From Treponema sp. (GTDB lineage Bacteria > Spirochaetota > Spirochaetia > Treponematales > Breznakiellaceae), in contig JAIROT010000214.1 of NCBI GenBank assembly GCA_031257385.1, positions 1 to 45,141 on the forward strand: a DNA stretch of 45,141 bases, given 5' to 3'. Under the pieces are notes generated by a model that saw only the letters and a list, made by a program, of their open reading frames with translations, did no database searches and was not told the DNA's origin. Of this stretch, positions 1-41,662 are shown piece by piece. Both the position numbers and the translations under genes were made by a program. The number at the start of each line of letters is the position of its first letter. The stretch's first letter is position 1.

Positions 1-184
1 CCTCCGGCGGGGAGGGCGTATCGGCGGCCTCCAGCACGAAACGGGCCGCTTCGTCGTAAGTGAGAACCGGCGCGTCCATAAGCGCTTCCAGTTCGTCCGC
101 GGACTGCGGCCAAACCGAAACCGGCGCCAGCAAAACCGGAACCAGCAGCAGCGCCCTCATTAATGTAAGTCCAAAACTTTTCAT
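1..184 (-). CDS. Exported protein, N-terminal part only (cut by window edge)
   Basis: The reading frame opens with an ATG whose complement lies at 182-184. A GGGGAG ribosome site sits directly upstream, and the frame runs off the left edge. The first ~27 residues form a signal peptide: a basic start (MKSF), a hydrophobic stretch rich in L, V and A, then a polar break at about PQSADE. The mature part begins DELEALMDAP, followed by a TYDEAARFVLEAAD stretch. I do not recognise the family with confidence; it looks like an envelope protein of treponemes. Export is inferred from the signal peptide only, and nothing can be said of its function. It lies downstream of, and in the same direction as, the beta-helix lipoprotein gene, about 290 bp away. 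Confidence 0.6.
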   Translation of the reverse strand, partial: MKSFGLTLMRALLLVPVLLAPVSVWPQSADELEALMDAPVLTYDEAARFVLEAADTPSPPE

Positions 185-5446: not shown

Positions 5447-5529
5447 TGCCGGCGGAGAGACTTGAACTCTCACGAGGTTGCCCTCAGTAGATTTTGAGTC
5501 TACCGTGTCTGCCATTTCACCACGCCGGC
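5447..5529 (-). tRNA. tRNA-Leu (anticodon CAA)
   Basis: The acceptor arms GCCGGCG (5523-5529) and CGCCGGC (5448-5454) pair perfectly, with discriminator A at 5447. The anticodon stem-loop GTAGA-CTCAAAA-TCTAC gives anticodon CAA. A long variable arm follows, as expected for leucine tRNAs, and the T arm contains GAGAGTTCAAGTCTCTC. The CCA end is not encoded. Confidence 0.95.
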
Positions 5530-7577: not shown

Positions 7578-7748
7578 TTCGAAAGTCTGGTTTAATACCC
7601 CGCGGCTTGCCGCGGTTCAGATAACGCAACGCTTACAAAAACTGGTATTAAACCAGACGGTATTATAAATTTCCTCTCGAACGAGCCTCCGTTCGAACTA
7701 ATGCATTGCTAAGGATACCGCGGAGCTCTGCTCCGCGGAGGCTCATCA
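7578..7748. repeat. Compound repeat cluster containing part of the 48-bp element
   Basis: The left 38 bp of the 48-bp dispersed repeat lie at 7578-7615. A perfect 15-bp inverted repeat follows, GTCTGGTTTAATACC (7585-7599) against GGTATTAAACCAGAC (7644-7658). A second hairpin has TCGAACG/CGTTCGA arms around 7677-7696. The cluster ends in ACCGCGGAGCTCTGCTCCGCGG and GGAGGCTCAT (to 7748). It overlaps the 3' part of the small YjfB-like gene, whose last ~28 codons are therefore repeat-derived. Confidence 0.65.
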
Positions 7749-7887
7749 CCCGGGCGCTTTCCATGAGCTTTGCCAGGGCCGCGCTTTGGTCTTTCATGGC
7801 GCTGAGGCCGAGGGCTTGTATACGGACCGCCGCTTCTTCCCGCGTTCCGGCCAGGCTCGTTTTGACTGACGCTGACTGTATATCCAT
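7663..7887 (-). CDS. Small YjfB-like putative motility protein with repeat-derived tail
   Basis: This is a 74-residue protein. Residues 1-48 (MDIQSASVKTSLAGTREEAA, then VRIQALGLSAMKDQSAALAKLMESA) resemble the YjfB family of small putative motility proteins in pattern: an MDI start, a short amphipathic helix, then an A-x-K-D/L-Q-x-A-L-x-L-x-x segment. From about residue 49 (VMSLRG onward) the frame runs through the dispersed repeat cluster, so the C-terminus was probably replaced by repeat insertion. The start ATG lies in the loop of a perfect palindrome and has no ribosome site. Family assignment is tentative. Confidence 0.5.
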   Translation of the reverse strand: MDIQSASVKTSLAGTREEAAVRIQALGLSAMKDQSAALAKLMESARVMSLRGAELRGILSNALVRTEARSRGNL

Positions 7888-7922
7888 ATATACAGTATCG
7901 TCCGGTTTTCCCCGAAAAACAA
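7876..7922 (-). promoter_or_regulatory. Promoter with start codon inside a palindrome (YjfB-like gene)
   Basis: On the minus strand TTGTTT (7917-7922), 17 bp and GATACT (7894-7899) form a sigma70-like promoter. The -10 box ends 6 nt before the ATG at 7887. The ATG lies in the ATGG loop of the palindrome CTGTATAT / ATATACAG (7876-7883, 7888-7895). No Shine-Dalgarno sequence is present, so the mRNA may be leaderless. Confidence 0.5.
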
Positions 7923-11225: not shown

Positions 11226-11528
11226 TCATGCCGGTTCTACAATACAACGGAGGGGGAATTCGTTCTCTCTGGCCGCCGCGTGAACCTGCTCCGCCTTGGT
11301 GGCCGCGATATCCCAGGCATAGACCCCCACCACACCCTTGCCCTTCCGGTGCACGTCCAGCATAATCCGGTTGGCGTCTTCAAAGCTCTTGTGGAAAATC
11401 ACCATCAGCACTTCCACCACGAATTCCATGGTGGTGTAGTGATCGTTGAGGAGAATTACCCGGTACACTTCCGGTTCTTTGAGCTTCTCATCGTTTTTTT
11501 CCGCTGTTTTGGTGATCAGCCGGGCCAT
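11226..11528 (-). CDS. clpS: ATP-dependent Clp protease adaptor ClpS
   Basis: This is a 100-residue adaptor that binds proteins with N-terminal Leu, Phe, Tyr or Trp and delivers them to ClpA. The signature LLNDHYTTMEFVVEVLMVIF (residues ~26-45) includes the binding-pocket N-D and gatekeeper Met. It continues with ANRIMLDVHRKGKGVVGVY, including the pocket His, and AARENEFPLRCIVEPA. It is the first gene of clpS-clpA-aat. The ATG lies only 5 nt after a perfect TATAAT and has no ribosome site. The cistron therefore appears to be read from a leaderless mRNA, whereas downstream genes rely on coupling or internal sites. Confidence 0.96.
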   Translation of the reverse strand: MARLITKTAEKNDEKLKEPEVYRVILLNDHYTTMEFVVEVLMVIFHKSFEDANRIMLDVHRKGKGVVGVYAWDIAATKAEQVHAAARENEFPLRCIVEPA

Positions 11529-11533
11529 ACGTT

Positions 11534-11563
11534 ATTATAAAATGATGAATGAATGATGGGCAA
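11534..11563 (-). promoter_or_regulatory. Promoter of clpS-clpA-aat (leaderless type)
   Basis: On the minus strand TTGCCC (11558-11563), an 18-bp spacer and TATAAT (11534-11539) are followed by 5 nt and the clpS ATG. Transcription would begin at or next to the start codon. No Shine-Dalgarno sequence is present. Confidence 0.65.
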
Positions 11564-11789
11564 GAGGGCGCGCGGCAGCGTTTCGGTTTCCCCGCAGCGC
11601 GAGCGCGTCACGGGCCCACGGTCTTTCCACTCGACATCCACAGGCTCCGCCATGCTATCGATCGCTGTTTCGCCGTTCGCCGGTTCTCCCTCATCCAAAT
11701 CATTGTCCTCCATACATCTATTATACCACTGTACCACGACAAAAGCGATAAATTATAGTATGACTAAAGACAAGGAAAGGAAGAATTAT

Positions 11790-14071: not shown

Positions 14072-14100
14072 TTGTTTTTCCGGTGAAACAGGCCGACAAT
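14072..14100 (+). promoter_or_regulatory. Promoter of small membrane protein gene (leaderless type)
   Basis: TTGTTT (14072-14077), 17 bp and GACAAT (14095-14100) are followed by 5 nt and the ATG at 14106. The arrangement is the same as for the YjfB-like gene. The only possible ribosome site, AGGG, lies between the -10 box and the ATG and is too close to function normally. Confidence 0.45.
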
Positions 14101-14105
14101 AGGGT

Positions 14106-14444
14106 ATGTTTGTTCTGATACTCCTGGGCATTATCATGCCGGCCGGTGTTATTTATCTGGCCCTTTCAAAGAAGTCCACTTTCCGGGTACGGATCGCCGC
14201 CCTTATCGCCCTGGGCGTGATGGTACTCTCGCTTATTATCAGCCTGTTTCTTATCTTTCTGGTGAAGCCTGCCGAACCCGCAAGCCCCTTCATCCCCTTT
14301 GACGTACCGGTGGAAGAGCCGCCCAATACGGGGAACAATATCTTCGCGCTGCTGGGCGTTATACTGTTTCTTGTTGTCCTGTTCCTGGTGATCCTGATGA
14401 TGTCCATGAGGGAAAACCGTAAAAGCGGGGGAAAGGGCCGTTAG
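14106..14444 (+). CDS. Small membrane protein, three transmembrane segments
   Basis: This is a 112-residue protein with hydrophobic segments at residues ~2-20, ~29-51 and ~77-97. A proline-rich polar loop (KPAEPASPFIPFDVPVEEPP, ~53-72) lies between the second and third. A basic tail (RENRKSGGKGR) follows and would be cytoplasmic. I recognise no domain, and function is unknown. The gene stands alone between mtlD (91 bp upstream) and larA (57 bp downstream), with its own promoter-like sequence. Confidence 0.7.
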   Translation: MFVLILLGIIMPAGVIYLALSKKSTFRVRIAALIALGVMVLSLIISLFLIFLVKPAEPASPFIPFDVPVEEPPNTGNNIFALLGVILFLVVLFLVILMMSMRENRKSGGKGR

Positions 14445-14462: not shown

Positions 14463-14492
14463 TTGTCCGCCGGAACATTGACATGATATAAT
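14463..14492 (+). promoter_or_regulatory. Promoter of larA homologue (near-leaderless)
   Basis: TTGTCC (14463-14468), 18 bp and a perfect TATAAT (14487-14492) are followed by 9 nt and the ATG at 14502. No Shine-Dalgarno sequence is visible, so the leader would be only about 2 nt. Confidence 0.6.
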
Positions 14493-14501
14493 TGACAAAG
14501 C

Positions 14502-15788
14502 ATGAAAGTAATAGTCCCTTATCTCAACAGTACTTTCCCCCTGGACTTTCCTGATGAGCATCTCCTTGCGATTGCTGAGCCCAATGAATTTAACGCATCA
14601 GGAAGTACCGAAGAAATACTTGCCGAAGCCCTTGTCCGTACTGTGGGAGAAGGAAAGACTAAAGGGCAAAGCCTGGATGAATTTCTTGCGGGATCTGAAA
14701 AACTCCTTATACTGGTCAATGACGCTACAAGGCCTACGCCGACAGAGGCCATACTTAAAAGCCTTATACCGGCCATAAGGGCTGCGGATATTGATTTGAA
14801 TAACTGCACGATCCTGGTGGCTACAGGCGCTCACCGCAAACCCTCTGAGGAAGAATACAACCAGATATTAGGCGCTTGTTATAACTCCCTGCGGAACCGC
14901 TGTATCGCCCATGATGCCCGCAATGATGCTGAAATGGTTGACCTCGGGACTACCAGGAATGGGACTCCGATTTTATTAAACAAATGTCTTTTTGAAGCAG
15001 ACCGCATCATTGCCACAGGCAGTGTAGAGCCTCATTACTTTGCGGGTTTTACCGGAGGCCGCAAAGCCTTTCTTCCGGGAATCGCGGCTTACAGGACTAT
15101 TCAGGAAAATCACAAACAGGCCCTGTCCCCCGCGGCCCGTTCCCTTGCCCTGGAAGGTAATCCGGTTCATGAAGATATGATGGACGCCCTTCCCCTGATC
15201 AAGACGCCGGTTTTTTCAATTATGACGGTGCTTGATAAAAATCAGGAAGTGGCGGCCGCAACAGCAGGGGATCTTATGGGTTCCTTTTATGAGGCGGTTG
15301 TTATCGCAAAGAAAATTTTCAGTGTTTCTGTTCCGGCAAAGGCGGACATTGTAGTATCGGTTGCAAAGTTTCCCATGGATATAGATCTTTACCAGTCCCA
15401 AAAAGCCATTGATAACGGCGCGATAGCCCTGAAAGACGGCGGGACTCTTATTCTGGTTTCTTCCTGCCGTGACGGTATAGGGGATGAGGCCTACGCCAAT
15501 CTGCTGGCTTCCGCCTCAAGCCCGACAGATGCAATGGCCAGGATTCGTGAAGGCTATAAGCTGGGATACCATAAGGCCGCCAAGATGGCGGCTGTTTCCG
15601 AACGCGCCGTTATAAACGCAGTGTCTGAACTTAGCGGAGAGCGCCTTAAGAGCATATTTATCCAAAAGGCATTGACACCCCAGGAAGCTCTTGATGAAGC
15701 CCTCCGGCGGGCAAGGGCAGGGGGAATTGCGGTTCCGAAAATACTGATACTGCCTGACGGCTGTGTGACGGTACCTGATCCTTCCTGA
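14502..15788 (+). CDS. larA: LarA-type nickel-pincer racemase/epimerase
   Basis: This is a 428-residue protein of the lactate racemase LarA family, cytoplasmic. LarA enzymes use a covalently bound nickel-pincer nucleotide to racemise or epimerise 2-hydroxyacids. The catalytic set is visible: H111 (GAHRKPSEEE), H178 and K188 (EPHYFAGFTGGRKAF) and H204. These keep the spacing of H108, H174, K184 and H200 of the Lactobacillus enzyme. DATRPTP (74-80) and KFPMDIDLYQSQKAID are further signatures. The cofactor genes larB, larC and larE are not in the window and must be elsewhere if the enzyme is active. Many LarA homologues act on substrates other than lactate, so the substrate is open. The stop lies 9 bp from the convergent lpd stop. 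Confidence 0.9.
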   Translation: MKVIVPYLNSTFPLDFPDEHLLAIAEPNEFNASGSTEEILAEALVRTVGEGKTKGQSLDEFLAGSEKLLILVNDATRPTPTEAILKSLIPAIRAADIDLNNCTILVATGAHRKPSEEEYNQILGACYNSLRNRCIAHDARNDAEMVDLGTTRNGTPILLNKCLFEADRIIATGSVEPHYFAGFTGGRKAFLPGIAAYRTIQENHKQALSPAARSLALEGNPVHEDMMDALPLIKTPVFSIMTVLDKNQEVAAATAGDLMGSFYEAVVIAKKIFSVSVPAKADIVVSVAKFPMDIDLYQSQKAIDNGAIALKDGGTLILVSSCRDGIGDEAYANLLASASSPTDAMARIREGYKLGYHKAAKMAAVSERAVINAVSELSGERLKSIFIQKALTPQEALDEALRRARAGGIAVPKILILPDGCVTVPDPS

Positions 15789-25361: not shown

Positions 25362-25433
25362 AGCGGCTGAACGGAGTCGAACCGTCGTCTCTAGCTTGGA
25401 AGGCTAGGGTAATAACCGTTATACGACAGCCGC
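25362..25433 (-). tRNA. tRNA-Gly (anticodon UCC)
   Basis: The acceptor arms GCGGCTG (25427-25433) and CAGCCGC pair, with discriminator T at 25362. The anticodon stem-loop CTAGC-CTTCCAA-GCTAG gives UCC, and the T arm contains GGTTCGACTCC. CCA is not encoded. An integrase remnant lies about 40 bp past its 3' end. Confidence 0.95.
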
Positions 25434-25491: not shown

Positions 25492-26289
25492 TCAAGGCTG
25501 CCGCCCCGTCTTGCCGATGCCTTCCGCCACCCATGAAATAATCACCGCGAGCCGTTTGCTGATGGCCGAAGGTATATCAATTTTTGAGGCGACAAAGTCC
25601 GAGACATCGGCGCCGGCCAGGCCGTATATCAAAACACCTTCCGCTATCGGTTCAAAATAAAGCTGGGCGGTGAATTGTTCTTCCCTAATAACCGGAACAA
25701 AAAGGTAGGTTAAATTTTTATAGTTTGATAAAAGGTACCTTATGCCGTAATTATCCACGGTCATATCTCCCCGGTAATAGGAATTCCCGAAATTGACATC
25801 CCTGAGTCTGATAAAAACCGTTTCCGTCCGGGGAACGGCGGAAGCCGGGCGCGGGTCAGGAACCGGCGTGTTTTTTTTCGCGCTTTCCAGACGGGTAGCG
25901 TCCTCAAAAAGCGGGATTTGTTTCCCGCGGGTTTCGGAAAAGTACAGCCTGCCCTTGAGTTTCCGGACATTTCCCAGCGCGTTGTATATGTCGGGAAGGG
26001 TGACTGTATCGGGCGTTTGGGGAATTACCAAAAGGGATTCTATGAAAAAGGCCGGTTTTTTATCCAGAACGGCGGCGCTGATCCGCGGATCAAGCCCTGC
26101 GGCAGCCGCCCCCCCGGTAACGCTGAGGCCCGAAGCGTCAACTGAAGATCCAAAATAACCGGCGTCCGAAAATACCGTTTCCCGTATCCCCGCCGGCAGA
26201 CCCGGAAATATGGCGTCAAAAGAGCGAATTTCGGCAAAGAGCGGCAATGACACGCAAGATACAAAAACACAGAGCAGTTTTTTCAGCAT
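25492..26289 (-). CDS. Exported treponemal protein (possibly DUF6675)
   Basis: This is a 265-residue protein with a clear signal peptide (residues 1-19, MLKKLLCVFVSCVSLPLFA, cleavage after FA). The mature part begins EIRSFDAIFPGLPAGIRETV. It contains LPDIYNALGNVRKLKGRLYF, DATRLESAKKN, VFIRLRDVNFGNSYYRGDM and YLLSNYKNLTYLFVPVIREE. It recalls the treponemal family I know as DUF6675; this is from memory and uncertain. Function is unknown; the location is probably periplasm or outer membrane. The ATG overlaps the WbaP-type gene's TAA by one base, so the two share a transcript and the protein may relate to envelope polysaccharide. Confidence 0.75.
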   Translation of the reverse strand: MLKKLLCVFVSCVSLPLFAEIRSFDAIFPGLPAGIRETVFSDAGYFGSSVDASGLSVTGGAAAAGLDPRISAAVLDKKPAFFIESLLVIPQTPDTVTLPDIYNALGNVRKLKGRLYFSETRGKQIPLFEDATRLESAKKNTPVPDPRPASAVPRTETVFIRLRDVNFGNSYYRGDMTVDNYGIRYLLSNYKNLTYLFVPVIREEQFTAQLYFEPIAEGVLIYGLAGADVSDFVASKIDIPSAISKRLAVIISWVAEGIGKTGRQP

Positions 26290-27731
26290 TAATACGCTCC
26301 CTTGCCTTTTATAACAACGCCGAAGGTCTTAAACAACACCCAAAGATCAAGCCAGACAGACCAGCTTTGCAGATAATAGGTGTCATAGGAAACCCGGTCA
26401 TTATACCCCTTGTCGGACCTGCCCGATACCTGCCAGAGTCCGGTAAGGCCGGGCAACACCGAAAAAACACGGCTGTAATTCTCGCCGTATTTTTCAATTT
26501 CGGCGTCCACAATGGGGCGGGGACCTATCAGGCTCATCTCCCCCTTCAGTACATTGATAAGCTGGGGAAATTCGTCAAAACTGGTACGCCGGAGGAAACG
26601 GCCGATTTTCGTTACCCTGGGATCGTTCCTGAGTTTGCGGTTCGTTTCCCATTCCCTGCGGATTTCAGGATCCCTTTCAAGGAGTTTTTCCAGCCGTTCG
26701 GCGGAATCGGTAACCATGGAACGGAATTTATACGCGGTAAAATGCCCGCCGTTTTTCCCCAGCCGTTTGTGTCCGTACAGGACAGGCCCCGGAGAACTCA
26801 GCTTAATCAGCGCGGCGATGAGCAGGAGCAGGGGCAGTACCAGAAGTCCGCCAAAAACGGCAATAAAGATATCCATAAAACGCTTAATCCCCAGGTTCCA
26901 GGGCATTTTGAGTTTATGGCTGGTTACAAAGCCCAGTACGCCGTTAAAATCCCGAACCGACATCCAGATATTGGTAACGCTGAAAAAGTGGGGGATCAGC
27001 ACGTTATAGCGGAAGGCCGAAACCGAATCATTCAAAAGCTTTTTCAGCTTCCCGCTGTCCAGCTGGGGCATTGCCACAATAGCCATTTTTATATTGTAGC
27101 GCTTTACAATTTCAGGTCCCGCGCCGGTATCGTGAATTACGGGGATGCCCCGGTATTCCTCGATCCCTTCCTGCCCGTCGTCAAGAATCAGCGTCGGGAT
27201 ATAGCCGGTTCTGGCGCTGCCCAAAAGGCAGTCAATTACCAGCCTGCCGGTAGCGCCGCTGCCGTAGATAACCGCCGGTATGCCGCCCAGCCGGGTTTTG
27301 TGAAGCAGCCAGTGGGTTACGCTCCGCATGGTAAGCAAAATCGTGGTAGAAAAAACGAAACTGACAATAAAAGCGAGTGAGATAGAGTCCCAGTCCTGGT
27401 CTTCGATAAACCTGGACAGGATAATGCCGCCGTGGGCCATAAAGGAGCCTATGCTAAAACGCCTCAGTTCCTCCGCTGGGGCAAGGGAAATTCCCGGATA
27501 GAGATTCAAAATCTGAAAAATCAAAATAAAAACCGGCAGGTACGGCCAATAGGTAACAAAGGACTTGAAATTGATAATCGAAAAATCATACAGGTTGACC
27601 CAAAAGAAGCCCCAGCCGAAGGACAACATAACCCCCAGAAGATCGGACAGGACAAAGGCTGTGGTTGTAAGAGACGAGCTGGTCCGCCGGTATCTGGTAC
27701 GGTACCACACATCAAATTCCGAAAGGATCAT
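26289..27731 (-). CDS. WbaP-type polyprenyl glycosylphosphotransferase
   Basis: This is a 480-residue inner-membrane enzyme that transfers a sugar 1-phosphate (galactose in WbaP) to undecaprenyl phosphate, the first step of O-antigen or exopolysaccharide synthesis. Four hydrophobic segments lie in residues ~20-155. A CoA-binding-like domain follows (GGIPAVIYGSGATGRLVIDC, ~170-190). The membrane hairpin FIAVFGGLLVLPLLLLIAAL and the catalytic sugar-transferase domain come next (YKFRSMVTDSAERLEKLLE, RRTSFDEFPQLINVLKGEMS, LIGPRP). The start is an ATG at 27731 without a strong ribosome site. TTGCCA, 17 bp and CATCTT lie 6 nt upstream of it. The exported protein gene follows with a 1-bp overlap. 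Confidence 0.9.
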   Translation of the reverse strand: MILSEFDVWYRTRYRRTSSSLTTTAFVLSDLLGVMLSFGWGFFWVNLYDFSIINFKSFVTYWPYLPVFILIFQILNLYPGISLAPAEELRRFSIGSFMAHGGIILSRFIEDQDWDSISLAFIVSFVFSTTILLTMRSVTHWLLHKTRLGGIPAVIYGSGATGRLVIDCLLGSARTGYIPTLILDDGQEGIEEYRGIPVIHDTGAGPEIVKRYNIKMAIVAMPQLDSGKLKKLLNDSVSAFRYNVLIPHFFSVTNIWMSVRDFNGVLGFVTSHKLKMPWNLGIKRFMDIFIAVFGGLLVLPLLLLIAALIKLSSPGPVLYGHKRLGKNGGHFTAYKFRSMVTDSAERLEKLLERDPEIRREWETNRKLRNDPRVTKIGRFLRRTSFDEFPQLINVLKGEMSLIGPRPIVDAEIEKYGENYSRVFSVLPGLTGLWQVSGRSDKGYNDRVSYDTYYLQSWSVWLDLWVLFKTFGVVIKGKGAY

Positions 27732-28142
27732 GCCTATAAGATGACGAAAAATCAGGCTTTTGGCAATATTCCTGTGACAGGCGGGCGCATGGGGCGGAAG
27801 ATTTTCCCGCCCCGCTTTCCCCCGCGCTCCGGCGTTTACAGCCGCCTTTGCGCCGCCTTCCGTATACGCGCCAAGCCGTCCGCCAGGACGGCACATAAAT
27901 CATGAAGAAAAATCCACCGTTGCGTCGAATGAGTCCAAAGAAGGAGGTCAAAAAAGGGGTTTGAAGTAAAAACTTTTTCGAAAGTCTGGTTTAATACCCC
28001 GCGGCTTGCCGCGCGGAGGCTCATCGGCTTCGCGGTAAAAATTCCGGTTTTTCACCGGTACGATAGTCAAAATGACGCGCCGTCCCTGACGGCGCGTCCG
28101 CATCGTATTATACGGCGGCGTTTTTTATGTTACACTGTCTGT
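27732..28142. repeat. Divergent intergenic region with third 48-bp repeat and a strong hairpin
   Basis: This 411-bp gap between divergent genes holds no supported gene. The 48-bp dispersed repeat lies at 27977-28024, almost identical to 2902-2949. A stem CCGGT/ACCGG follows near 28043-28059. A perfect 11-bp stem GACGCGCCGTC/GACGGCGCGTC with loop CCT lies at 28074-28098. The obgE promoter region then begins (TACACT at 28131-28136, 6 nt before the ATG). Confidence 0.65.
28131..28136 (+). promoter_or_regulatory. -10 box of obgE (leaderless type)
   Basis: TACACT ends 6 nt before the obgE ATG at 28143, the same spacing as for cheR and the YjfB-like gene. No convincing -35 box is seen at 16-18 bp (TTATAC at 28108-28113 is weak), and no Shine-Dalgarno sequence precedes the ATG. 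Confidence 0.4.
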
Positions 28143-29216
28143 ATGGAAAAATTCGCCGACGAAGCGGTGATTGAGGTTTCCTCCGGCTCAGGGGGGAACG
28201 GCTGCGCGGCCTTCCGGCGGGAAAAGTACGTGCCCAGGGGCGGGCCTTCAGGCGGGGACGGGGGCAGGGGAGGGGATGTGGTGTTTACGATCCGCCGCAA
28301 CCTTCGTACCCTGGCCCACCTGCGCTACAAGCGCGTTTTTAAGGCCGAAAACGGCCGGGACGGCGGGGGCGGCGGCCGCTACGGCAGAAACGGAGGGGCC
28401 GTGATCATTCCCCTGCCGCCCGGTTCCCTTATCCGCGATGCCGAAACCGGAGCGCTGATTAGGGATTTCAGCGGCGGGGAGGATGACTTTGTGTTTCTCA
28501 AGGGGGGGAACGGCGGCTGGGGGAATATCCATTTCAAATCCCCGGTAAACCAGGCGCCCCGCAAGGCCCTGCCGGGCCAGCCCGGTAAGACGGCGCTGCT
28601 CAGGGTAGAACTGCGGATTATGGCGGACATAGGCCTTGTGGGCTTCCCCAACGCGGGGAAATCAAGCCTCCTGGACCGCTTTACCAATGCCCGGCCCAAA
28701 ATCGCCCCCTATCCCTTCACCACGAAAATCCCCAACCTGGGGGTGCTCACCGTGGGGGCCTCCGTCCGTGATGGGGCCGGCGGCAGGGACATCATTCTGG
28801 CCGACATTCCGGGGCTTATTGAGGGCGCTTCGGCGGGGGCCGGGCTGGGCATCCGCTTTCTCAAACACATATCCCGCACCGCCGCCCTGGCTTTCCTTGT
28901 CGATCTTTCCGATGATAATTTCCTGGCGGCGTTTGACGTGCTCCTGGGGGAGCTTGAGGCTTTTTCCCCGGCGCTGCTGAAAAAAAAGCGGCTCCTTCTG
29001 GGGACCAAAACCGATCTGAGCGAAAGCGAAGGGCGGCTCGCCGAACTTGCCGCCAAATACCCCGCCGAGCAAGTCCGCGGCATTTCGGTTTTTTCCGGTG
29101 AGGGGATAACGGAACTGGCTGCGGACATAGCGCGCCTCACCGAAGCGGCGGAGAAAGAAGCCGTTCCCGCGGGAAGATTCCCCGTATCTTCTTTGCCCTG
29201 GACGGGCTGGAAATAG
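28143..29216 (+). CDS. obgE: GTPase ObgE
   Basis: This is a 357-residue essential GTPase of 50S ribosome assembly and stress control, cytoplasmic. The glycine-rich Obg domain covers residues ~1-158 (GSGGNGCAAFRREKYVPRGG, GGDGGRGGDV). The G domain then shows G1 GFPNAGKSS (~167-175), the switch II/G3 DIPGLIEGASAGAGLG and the G4-like TKTDL. The protein ends ~30 residues after the G domain, so the variable C-terminal domain is nearly absent. The usual neighbours rpmA and rplU are not here; the gene stands alone, divergent from the WbaP-type gene. The start has no ribosome site. Confidence 0.95.
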   Translation: MEKFADEAVIEVSSGSGGNGCAAFRREKYVPRGGPSGGDGGRGGDVVFTIRRNLRTLAHLRYKRVFKAENGRDGGGGGRYGRNGGAVIIPLPPGSLIRDAETGALIRDFSGGEDDFVFLKGGNGGWGNIHFKSPVNQAPRKALPGQPGKTALLRVELRIMADIGLVGFPNAGKSSLLDRFTNARPKIAPYPFTTKIPNLGVLTVGASVRDGAGGRDIILADIPGLIEGASAGAGLGIRFLKHISRTAALAFLVDLSDDNFLAAFDVLLGELEAFSPALLKKKRLLLGTKTDLSESEGRLAELAAKYPAEQVRGISVFSGEGITELAADIARLTEAAEKEAVPAGRFPVSSLPWTGWK

Positions 29217-32460: not shown

Positions 32461-32477
32461 AAAAAAAACGATGAACC
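32461..32477 (-). terminator. rnpB 3' end with T8 tract
   Basis: The 3' arm of the P1 helix is followed directly by eight T residues, so P1 or the final stem serves as an intrinsic terminator. Confidence 0.6.
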
Positions 32478-32887
32478 ATAAGCCGGGTTCTGTGTTCGAC
32501 CGTCATCTGTCTGGGGACGGCCTCGCGGCCGCCCTCCGTGCAGTCTACCCGCGTTTAACCGGCGGGCAGCCGGTGTGAATGGCGAGCCGTTCACGACGCT
32601 GCTTGACTTTGCTCCTGGTGAGGCTTGCCGTGCCGGCAGCGTTACCGCTGCCGCGGCGGGCTTTTACCCCGCCATTTCACCCTTACCCGTTCAGCGGCGC
32701 TTGCCGGCTTTGCGGGCGGTATATTTTCTGCTGCGCTGTCTGTCAAAAAGCCGAATATCTTCAGGAAAACCTTCCGATTACGGCCCTCTGCCCGGGCGTT
32801 ACCCGGCACCATGCCCTGCGGAGCCCGGACTTTCCTCCCGGAGCGGAACAAAGTTCCTTTAGCCGGGCGGCGGTCTGGTTCATCGTG
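32469..32887 (-). ncRNA. rnpB: RNase P RNA, bacterial type
   Basis: The minus strand carries the conserved 5' region GGGAGGAAAGTCCGGGCTCC and the GGGTAACGCCCGG element. The characteristic 3' end is AGAACCCGGCTTATGG. P1 is closed by CGATGAACC (32877-32885) against GGTTCATCG (32469-32477), and eight T residues follow (32461-32468). A promoter lies just upstream. The 5' end is estimated from P1 and may be up to 15 nt longer. Confidence 0.93.
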
Positions 32888-33001: not shown

Positions 33002-33030
33002 TTGCCCACATTTCCCAATTCTGCTATGCT
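33002..33030 (+). promoter_or_regulatory. pheS promoter (near-leaderless)
   Basis: TTGCCC (33002-33007), 17 bp and TATGCT (33025-33030) precede the ATG at 33041 by 10 nt. A perfect TATAAT at 33034-33039 lies even closer but would put the transcript start inside the gene. No ribosome site is present. Confidence 0.5.
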
Positions 33031-33040
33031 CATTATAATC

Positions 33041-34648
33041 ATGCCGATTGATATTCAGAACACGGTAAAGAACCTGCATCCCCTGGAAATACGGATCATC
33101 CTTTCCTATGCAAAAGGCGACGAGCTTAGCATCGAAAAGGTTGAAAAAGAGCTTGGCTTTAAGCCCGGAAACGGCAATCAGGCCCTGTCCTGGCTTGCGG
33201 ACAAGGCCCTGCTAAGCGAAATTCGCCGGACAACGGCCGTTTTTTACGAGATGACCGCTCTGGGCCGGGAATGGAAGGAAAAGGGAAGCCCGGAGGAACG
33301 GATCATTGAACTGATTCGGATTCAAAGCGGCCTTAGCCTGCCCGACATAGCCCGGACCTTAAAACTGGAAAACAGGGATATAGGCAGCGCTTTCGGCAGT
33401 CTTTCCAAACTCGGCGTGCTTGCAATGGACGGCGGGAAAAAAGTGATTATGGCTTTGCCGCCGGACCGGCTTGAAAACGGACGGCCGATCCTTGAGCATT
33501 TCGCGGTTTTGCGCGGCCTCCTGGACAGGGCCGCGGAAGGCGGCCTGATTGCCGAAGCCTCCCTCAGTAACGCGGAGAAAAGCATCATGGCGGGTATCTC
33601 AAAAAAGCGGGGCGCGTCGGACGCGGCCTTCCGCCAGATTGACCGTGAAACCGTGTTCTTCGGCTTTACCGTATCCGGCGACGGTTCGGTTCCCGCGGAA
33701 GCGGTAGCCGCCGCGCTCAGGGCCGCCGGTATCACCGGAGATGAGATAGGAACCCTTAGCCCGGAAATGCTTGAAACGGGAAGCTGGAAGGGTAAAACCT
33801 TCAGATCGTATAATGTCAGGACGCCTCCCACAAGGCTCAATCCGGGCCGTACCAATCCCTACGCGAAATTTCTTGAGAACGTAAAGGATAAACTCGCCGC
33901 CCTGGGCTTTGAAGAATTCGACGGCCCCCTGGTTGAAACCGAGTTCTGGAATTCGGACGCCCTCTTTATGCCGCAGTTTCATTCGGCCAGGGATATCCAC
34001 GACGTGTACCGCGTCGCCGAGCCTGACAAAGCCAGGGCCATTGAGGAGCCGTGGCTTTCCAACATAGCCGCCGCCCACGAATCAGGCGGCGCCACCGGCA
34101 GCCGGGGCTGGAACTATGCCTTTGACCGGGACTTTACCCGCAGGCTCATACTCCGCAGCCAGGGCACAGTGCTCTCCGCCAAGACCCTGCCCAGGGCGGA
34201 AATCCCCGGCAAGTACTTCGGCATTGTCCGCTGTTTCCGTTACGACCGGGTAGACGCCACCCACCTGCCCGACTTCTACCAAACCGAAGGCATTGTCCTG
34301 GGCGAAAACGTGAACCTCCGTACCCTTTTGGGGATGCTCGACATGTTCGCCAGAGAGGTTGCCGGCGCGAAAGAGGTAAAGTATGTGCCCGGCTATTTCC
34401 CTTTCACCGAACCTTCGGTGGAAGTGCATATCAAGCATCCGGTACTGGGCTGGTTCGAGCTGGGCGGCTCCGGCATTTTCCGTCCCGAAGTTACCGAAAG
34501 CCTGGGCGTAACCGTGCCTGTGGCCGCCTGGGGCCTCGGCATTGACCGCATGGCCCTTATGGCGCTGGGCCTTAACGATCTCCGGGAGCTTTTCAGCTGC
34601 AACATCGAAAACGTGCGCCTGCGGAGAGCGAAAGAAACCGCCGTGTAA
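33041..34648 (+). CDS. pheS: Phenylalanine-tRNA ligase alpha subunit, archaeal/eukaryotic type
   Basis: This is a 535-residue class II aminoacyl-tRNA synthetase subunit. The start MPIDIQN is the most likely; an ATG 15 nt upstream is the alternative. The long N-terminal part (~1-220) holds winged-helix-like units, as in archaeal and eukaryotic PheS rather than the ~340-residue bacterial form. Catalytic signatures are MPQFHSARDIHDVY (~305-318), motif 2 FRYDRVDATHLPDFYQTEGI (~400-419) and motif 3 GLGIDRMALMALGLNDLREL (~500-519). Spirochaetes are known to carry archaeal-type PheRS, which supports the taxonomic reading. pheT is not adjacent; a sugar transporter operon follows. Confidence 0.93.
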   Translation: MPIDIQNTVKNLHPLEIRIILSYAKGDELSIEKVEKELGFKPGNGNQALSWLADKALLSEIRRTTAVFYEMTALGREWKEKGSPEERIIELIRIQSGLSLPDIARTLKLENRDIGSAFGSLSKLGVLAMDGGKKVIMALPPDRLENGRPILEHFAVLRGLLDRAAEGGLIAEASLSNAEKSIMAGISKKRGASDAAFRQIDRETVFFGFTVSGDGSVPAEAVAAALRAAGITGDEIGTLSPEMLETGSWKGKTFRSYNVRTPPTRLNPGRTNPYAKFLENVKDKLAALGFEEFDGPLVETEFWNSDALFMPQFHSARDIHDVYRVAEPDKARAIEEPWLSNIAAAHESGGATGSRGWNYAFDRDFTRRLILRSQGTVLSAKTLPRAEIPGKYFGIVRCFRYDRVDATHLPDFYQTEGIVLGENVNLRTLLGMLDMFAREVAGAKEVKYVPGYFPFTEPSVEVHIKHPVLGWFELGGSGIFRPEVTESLGVTVPVAAWGLGIDRMALMALGLNDLRELFSCNIENVRLRRAKETAV

Positions 34649-40805: not shown

Positions 40806-40834
40806 TTGACACGATGCCTCCGGTCTTTTACTAT
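40806..40834 (+). promoter_or_regulatory. cheR-cheB promoter (leaderless type)
   Basis: A perfect TTGACA (40806-40811), 17 bp and TACTAT (40829-40834) are followed by 6 nt and the cheR ATG at 40841. No Shine-Dalgarno sequence precedes the ATG, so transcription probably begins at the start codon. Confidence 0.65.
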
Positions 40835-40840
40835 TAAAGC

Positions 40841-41662
40841 ATGGCTGAAGCCACGTTCCTTACCAATGCTGATTTTGAGCAGTACCGCGCTCTTATTTAC
40901 GCTGAGAGCGGTATCACTTTCACGCCGACGAATCGCTCGATCCTGGAAAGCAGACTCAAGGAACGGCTGAGGGAAAAAGGCATCGATTCGACCAGGACCT
41001 ATTTTACTGAAATTTCCAGAAACAAGGAAGAACTCAAGGGATTTCTTGATATAATAACTACCAATTTGACCCGTTTTTTCCGGAATCAGGCCCATTTTGA
41101 CGCACTGGAGAAGTTCGTCGTACCCGAATTGATCAATAATATCAAAAAAGGCGTCCCCGGCACCCTCAGAATCTGGAGCGCCGGCTGTTCCACGGGGGAA
41201 GAACCCTACACTATCGCTATGCTGATGAACGAGATTCTGCCGCCGTCCTGGAAATACGAGATAGTGGCCAGCGATATCAGCCTGAAATGCCTGATGACCG
41301 CCAAAGAGGGATTTTACGCTGAGAGCCGTATCGTCGGTATCCCCGACAGTTACCTTGCCAAATATTTTGACAAAATGGAGGACGGCTACAAAATACATGC
41401 CGACATCCAATCAAAAATACGTTTTGACTATCATAACCTGAAAAACGATCCCGACCTTCACGGCCTGGACATAGTATTCTGCCGGAATGTCATCATCTAT
41501 TTTGATGAGGCTGCCCAGAAGGCTGTCATAAACCGCTTTTGGGACGCCATGGCGTCCAAGTCCTTTTTGTTTATCGGTCATTCAGAATCGCTTTTCGGCA
41601 TGGATACCAAATTCGAATTTTTAAAAACACAGTGGGCAACCTTGTACCGGAAGTTCACCTAA
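40841..41662 (+). CDS. cheR: Chemotaxis protein methyltransferase CheR
   Basis: This is a 273-residue SAM-dependent methyltransferase that methylates glutamates of chemoreceptors. The N-terminal helical domain covers ~1-80 (FEQYRALIYAESGITFTPT, LDIITTNLTRFFRNQAHF). The SAM-binding loop is IWSAGCSTGEEPYTIAM (~107-123), followed by DIVFCRNVIIYFDE (~208-221) and LFIGHSESL (~244-252). It is 12 bp upstream of cheB and on the same transcript. No receptor, cheA or cheW gene is nearby. Confidence 0.96.
   Translation: MAEATFLTNADFEQYRALIYAESGITFTPTNRSILESRLKERLREKGIDSTRTYFTEISRNKEELKGFLDIITTNLTRFFRNQAHFDALEKFVVPELINNIKKGVPGTLRIWSAGCSTGEEPYTIAMLMNEILPPSWKYEIVASDISLKCLMTAKEGFYAESRIVGIPDSYLAKYFDKMEDGYKIHADIQSKIRFDYHNLKNDPDLHGLDIVFCRNVIIYFDEAAQKAVINRFWDAMASKSFLFIGHSESLFGMDTKFEFLKTQWATLYRKFT

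Follow-up and report, generated by a model that had tools for sequence, protein, structure and literature searches.

A sizeable minority of promoter-proximal genes in the Treponema sp. genome studied here, and in the order Treponematales, appear to have sigma70-type promoters set immediately against their start codons and to be translated by leaderless initiation, a reading that promoter placement and sequence conservation make probable at about 0.85. For these genes, such a promoter would have a -10 box that ends 5 to 9 nt upstream of the start codon, most often 6 nt. Transcription by RNA polymerase would then begin at the A of the ATG, or at most a few nucleotides ahead of it, and the ribosome would initiate on the 5'-terminal AUG without Shine-Dalgarno pairing. 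The remaining genes, including those internal to operons, would rely on ordinary Shine-Dalgarno initiation. Leaderless translation in other bacteria is carried out by 70S ribosomes. The sequence evidence supports the presence of this known mode of initiation, operating by an ordinary bacterial mechanism, and it would be new for Treponematales as far as the literature was searched.

The stretch of DNA that was analyzed (the window; 45,141 nucleotides) corresponds to contig C289 in the draft genome G000 (3.11 Mb in 308 contigs, 88.9% complete), in which the 3' end of 16S rRNA was not found. The pheS gene of the window is nearest to those of Treponema sp. metagenome-assembled genomes and Spirochaetia isolates, with Breznakiella homolactica among the relatives, which are presumably insect-gut spirochaetes. 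Start codons were picked from coding score and start-codon type only, and upstream DNA was ignored. Promoters were scored in bits as the sum of the -35 box, the spacer, and the -10 box, using E. coli weights that were not fitted to these genomes. Genes in the window were scored at the best box-to-start spacing within 4 to 10 nt, and a hit for counting purposes required at least 7 bits, a single threshold that was used throughout. Twenty promoter-proximal genes were called in the window, including a few doubtful short open reading frames.

A first-pass annotation of the window had named eight genes as having a promoter at the start codon, and seven of these withstand closer inspection. The layout described for clpS is exact in its coordinates. 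This gene (11226 to 11528, minus strand, start codon at 11528; ClpS Pfam match of 118.6 bits; 36 of 39 genus genomes have an ortholog) is preceded by TATAAT at 11534 to 11539, which lies 5 nt (AACGT) before the ATG, and by TTGCCC at 11558 to 11563 with a spacer of 18, for a promoter score of 12.8 bits. At the clpS loci L212 and L213, TATAAT-5-ATG is also present, although the DNA farther upstream has diverged. Comparable arrangements are found at larA (14502 to 15788, plus strand; Lar_N match), where TTGTCC-18-TATAAT at 14463 to 14492 lies 9 nt from the ATG (12.8 bits), and at cheR (40841 to 41662, plus strand), where TTGACA-17-TACTAT at 40806 to 40834 lies 6 nt away (13.2 bits). For pheS on the plus strand, the gene caller placed the start at 33026, but the ATG 15 nt downstream at 33041 is favored both by orthologs and by the promoter, TTGCCC-17-TATGCT at 33002 to 33030, which ends 10 nt before it, scores 9.5 bits, and is conserved in orthologs.

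Three further genes have scores just below the counting threshold. These are the YjfB-like gene (7663 to 7887, minus strand), with TTGTTT-17-GATACT at 7894 to 7922 and 6 nt from the ATG (6.5 bits); a gene for a small membrane protein (14106 to 14444, plus strand), with TTGTTT-17-GACAAT at 14072 to 14100 and 5 nt from the ATG (6.5 bits); and obgE (28143 to 29216, plus strand), with ATTATA-18-TACACT at 28107 to 28136, 6 nt from the ATG, and a poor -35 box (6.3 bits). None of the seven supported genes has a Shine-Dalgarno 4-mer. Pfam matches support the identities of ClpS, LarA, CheR, and the sugar transferase of the window, and the YjfB match is sub-threshold (12.8 bits against a cut-off of 27). 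The eighth gene, of the WbaP type (26289 to 27896), scores -0.7 bits and was rejected as a leaderless candidate. Another rejected candidate is a 65-codon open reading frame (11516 to 11713, minus strand) that overlaps the start of clpS and has its own TATAAT-6-ATG; it has no Pfam match, and L212 and L213 have a counterpart only of its end, which overlaps and adjoins clpS.

The distance between promoter and start codon has the peak expected of such an arrangement. Five Treponematales genomes were pooled (G000; G021, of the same genus; G036; G037; and G039, of another family and with a G+C content of 70%), giving 905 promoter-proximal and 645 operon-internal genes; counts of spacing, Shine-Dalgarno sites, and -35 boxes omit genes that are cut by a contig end or that have no upstream neighbor on the stretch. 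Among the promoter-proximal genes, hits per position number 27.4 at 5 to 9 nt, 7.75 at 10 to 17 nt, and 11.4 at 18 to 44 nt. The 137 hits at 5 to 9 nt compare with 56.9 expected from the rate at 18 to 44 nt (Poisson 1.7e-19), and the peak is significant in each of the five genomes alone (P from 1.6e-8 to 0.012). The trough at 10 to 17 nt falls under the 18 to 44 nt rate (P = 8e-4). Operon-internal genes have 1 to 4 hits per spacing at 5 to 9 nt. A peak followed by a trough is the shape predicted if genes use one of two modes, being either leaderless or equipped with a leader that has room for a Shine-Dalgarno site.

The alternative that survives best holds that these promoters are real, but that most of the transcripts carry leaders of 2 to 10 nt and are not strictly leaderless. 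Some individual cases lean this way, since the promoters of larA and pheS lie 9 and 10 nt from their start codons and have predicted leaders of about 2 to 4 nt, which qualifies the leaderless reading first given to these two genes even as data from the genus, the order, and orthologs uphold that reading in general. Spacings of 7 to 9 nt also make up 62 of the 137 pooled hits. However, the mode is 6 nt, with 56 hits, and promoters are sparse at precisely those distances of 10 to 17 nt described above. Furthermore, a pyrimidine precedes the start codon in 48 of 54 genes at spacing 6, where this preference is strongest, whereas among genes with a Shine-Dalgarno site the figure is 280 of 450 (P = 6e-5). 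This fits a pyrimidine-purine start point at which transcription begins with the A of ATG. Leaders of a few nucleotides on most of these transcripts are thus rather unlikely.

Other marks set the near-promoter class apart. ATG is the start codon of 117 of 128 near-promoter genes versus 597 of 777 others (P = 9e-5). A Shine-Dalgarno 4-mer occurs in 6 of the 128, versus 12 of the 31 genes in which a control motif takes that position, although this absence is partly built in because a -10 box at -12 occupies the Shine-Dalgarno site. The 32 candidates in G000 include ClpS, LarA, CheR, RuvA, thymidylate synthase, a MurG-type glycosyltransferase, YchF, RnfC, an RnfD-type protein, and LacI, GntR, and AraC regulators. 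Pfam matches are above the cut-off for 25 of the 32, and the start codons seem sensible because in 17 of these 25 the domain begins at residue 17 or earlier.

It is also conceivable that the TA-rich hexamers are not promoters at all, but parts of A+T-rich, weakly folded initiation regions recognized through ribosomal protein S1 or through RNA structure, with transcription beginning farther upstream. By the criteria used here, a near promoter and a Shine-Dalgarno site are both missing from 40% of the promoter-proximal genes of G000. Moreover, the A+T bias at -20 to -10 of genes lacking Shine-Dalgarno sites can be read either way and might have other causes, as one study cautions (PMC5397173). 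Against this explanation, the signal is concentrated at a single spacing, is matched by a -35 box 16 to 18 nt away, and is followed by a trough. In G000, 19 of 200 promoter-proximal genes have TANNNT at -12, versus an average of 4.2 at other positions; among operon-internal genes the count is 2 of 139. The corresponding numbers are 23 versus a background of 6.1 in G021 and 12 versus 2.8 in G036, whereas G039 has 11 at -12 and 7 at -13 versus 1.1. Boxes at -13 to -11 have a better -35 match than boxes at other positions in G000, G021, G037, and G039, but not in G036 (P = 0.12). No peak is seen for the control motif ATNNNA. Likewise, no peak was obtained when the identical script was applied to 0.3 Mb of E. 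coli K-12 with 173 promoter-proximal genes, of which 3 have a near-start promoter (4 hits at 5 to 9 nt, or 0.8 per position versus 1.41). An explanation that dispenses with near-start promoters is accordingly improbable. Two results do limit the generality of the TANNNT signal. There is no plain peak at -12 in G037 (8 versus a background of 8.0), which disfavors a universal form of it, although the full promoter score does peak in this genome, at 7 to 8 nt. In addition, a small excess of TANNNT at -12 among operon-internal genes of G021 (8 versus 2.6) counts against the near-start promoter reading.

Pattern counts that are independent of gene calling require a codon control. TTGACA-16..18-TANNNT-5..7-ATG occurs 37 times in the whole of G000 and 9 times when the spacer is set to 11 to 13, but ATA, ATC, and ATT in place of ATG together give 58, or 19 per triplet. 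In 12 genus genomes (12 of 194 genome rows, summed by hand), the ATG pattern is found 458 times, the spacer control 137 times, and the three substituted triplets 670 times (223 per triplet). Once this codon control is applied, roughly half of the raw count disappears and a twofold excess of ATG is left. Plain counts are inflated because promoters favor A and then T at the start point, and counts made without the codon control were set aside as insufficient evidence. The highest count noticed among the 194 genomes is that of G153 (same family, genus g66), with 129 versus 30 at the control spacing and 38 per triplet in the codon control.

Conservation among orthologs was assessed as the presence of TANNNT at -14 to -11. 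Loci whose upstream DNA was too short, or that had no start codon close by, were dropped: clpS, cheR, and the small membrane protein gene lost 1 of 30 apiece, obgE lost none of 30, pheS lost 2 of 80, and the phylum-wide cheR set lost 6 of 29. The most conserved case is cheR, for which all 29 usable genus orthologs out of 30 loci carry the box and 1 has a Shine-Dalgarno site. Outside the genus, the box precedes 10 of 23 cheR genes, including several of family f3, and the two orthologs of the G037 type have Shine-Dalgarno sites. The box and the Shine-Dalgarno site are found, respectively, in 17 and 3 of 29 clpS orthologs, 13 and 7 of 30 obgE orthologs, 28 and 39 of 78 pheS orthologs, and 4 and 10 of 29 orthologs of the small membrane protein gene. 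The modest shares with the box at obgE and pheS weigh against the leaderless reading. The failure of one gene of eight and the sub-threshold scores of three others might suggest chance matches in a single window, but this notion is scarcely credible in light of the genome and order statistics, the orthologs, and the E. coli control.

The pheS family includes both forms of initiation region. Among 80 loci, 30 are of the leaderless type, 42 have Shine-Dalgarno sites, 6 belong to neither class, and 2 have too little upstream DNA. The promoter is often identical between the two forms (for example, TTCTCA-17-TATTCT), whereas the stretch from promoter to ATG differs, being either 6 to 9 nt without a Shine-Dalgarno site or about 15 to 30 nt with one. 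When these forms are mapped onto a phylogeny of all 80 proteins (one tree, built by a quick method with the first 12 residues excluded), 15 changes are counted over the 72 classed rows, of which at least 8 are forced by starred branches. The pheS classes, the changes on the pheS tree, and the pooled spacing distribution suggest that leaders of intermediate length are selected against and that genes switch repeatedly between modes. The odds seem about even for the broader proposal that Treponematales as a whole have leaderless initiation as a normal second mode, with such a selected gap between no leader and one long enough for a Shine-Dalgarno site, repeated switching of the kind seen at pheS through small insertions or deletions behind a conserved promoter, and a motility-linked subset of genes that may be served by an alternative sigma factor.

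The scale of the phenomenon is smaller than the "many first genes" originally proposed. The layout is above chance, but it is found in a minority of the promoter-proximal genes of G000 (32 of 200, or 16%, before background is subtracted). Net of the rate in the trough or at 18 to 44 nt, it corresponds to about 10 to 14% of promoter-proximal genes, or 6 to 8% of 360 genes. The suggestion that leaderless initiation is undescribed for treponemes stands insofar as no report was found in a literature search, with subscription journals mostly outside its reach, but precedents exist among other spirochaetes. In Leptospira interrogans, dRNA-seq mapped about 2865 primary starts, of which about 440 lie no more than 10 nt from the start codon (PMC5243855). 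Of 18 spirochaete genomes, 6 were predicted to have leaderless genes, at a mean of 3.9% of genes (1.8 to 6.9%) (Zheng et al. 2011; PMC3160421). The share estimated here is close to the 15% of Leptospira, which is also a spirochaete, although of another lineage of the phylum and with starts that were mapped rather than inferred from sequence. It is at or slightly above the upper value of Zheng et al. (2011). The leaderless set of Leptospira under-represents motility genes at 37°C (PMC5243855), whereas cheR is the most conserved case here.

The TA-led genes of Zheng et al. (2011; PMC3160421) resemble the present class in having TANNNT about 12 nt before the start and no Shine-Dalgarno site. Their restriction to single genes or the first genes of operons is also seen here, with operon-internal genes nearly free of hits. 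The word treponema is absent from the main text of that paper, and the present analysis adds the orthologs, the spacing trough, and the switching. For Treponema denticola, one report describes sigma70 promoters and a sigma28 promoter with the -10 sequence CCGATAA, and neither of its two mapped starts, which precede the codon by 14 and 124 nt, is leaderless (PMC9481697).

The small membrane protein gene and the YjfB-like gene may represent a distinct promoter type. The -10 region of the former (14072 to 14100, plus strand) also reads GCCGACAA, which is sigma28- or WhiG-like and close to GCCGATAA, and by visual count 25 of 30 orthologs have a CCGA-type -10. The same GCCGACAA is given as the sigmaWhiG -10 of the leaderless Streptomyces gene whiH in Table 1 of PMC3160421. 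In the small membrane protein gene, it begins 3 nt upstream of GACAAT and ends a few nucleotides before the ATG, comparable to whiH. The YjfB-like gene (7894 to 7922, minus strand) has ACGATACT, a weaker resemblance to GCCGATAA. Both promoters contain CTTGTTTTTC-12 nt-CGA(T/C)A(C/A)T, 5 to 6 nt before the ATG, and a loose form of this pattern occurs 3 times in 0.42 Mb of G000 versus once for the reversed control. Unlike the sigmaWhiG case, by inspection the small membrane protein gene lacks a sigma28-type -35 box (TAAA/TTAA), which is absent from the expected place in the YjfB-like gene as well. A sigma28 assignment of these two motility-type genes was rejected because CTTGTTTTTC occupies the -35 position instead. 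Promoters of the CTTGTTTTTC type could possibly reflect an alternative sigma factor. Upstream of the small membrane protein gene at L277, L281, L283, and L287, an inverted repeat of the CTTGTTGACAAG type covers the -35 region and is perhaps a candidate operator.

The presence of a Shine-Dalgarno site is the usual yardstick for treponeme gene starts, reporter fusions, and expression constructs. If the near-start promoters act as proposed, then this yardstick would be wrong for about one in seven promoter-proximal genes, including cheR, and for pheS in about two fifths of the classed relatives. The pheS family would also provide a natural series for studying moves between leaderless and Shine-Dalgarno initiation. 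Elsewhere in the window there are a class A RNase P RNA (32464 to 32886, minus strand) and two tRNA genes (25362 to 25433 and 5447 to 5529, both on the minus strand). A dispersed intergenic repeat centered around TTCGAAAGTCYGGTTTAATACCCCGCGGCTTGCCGCG is found at 2913, 7589, and 27988 on the plus strand and at 7644 on the minus strand, the last copy being only partly alike.
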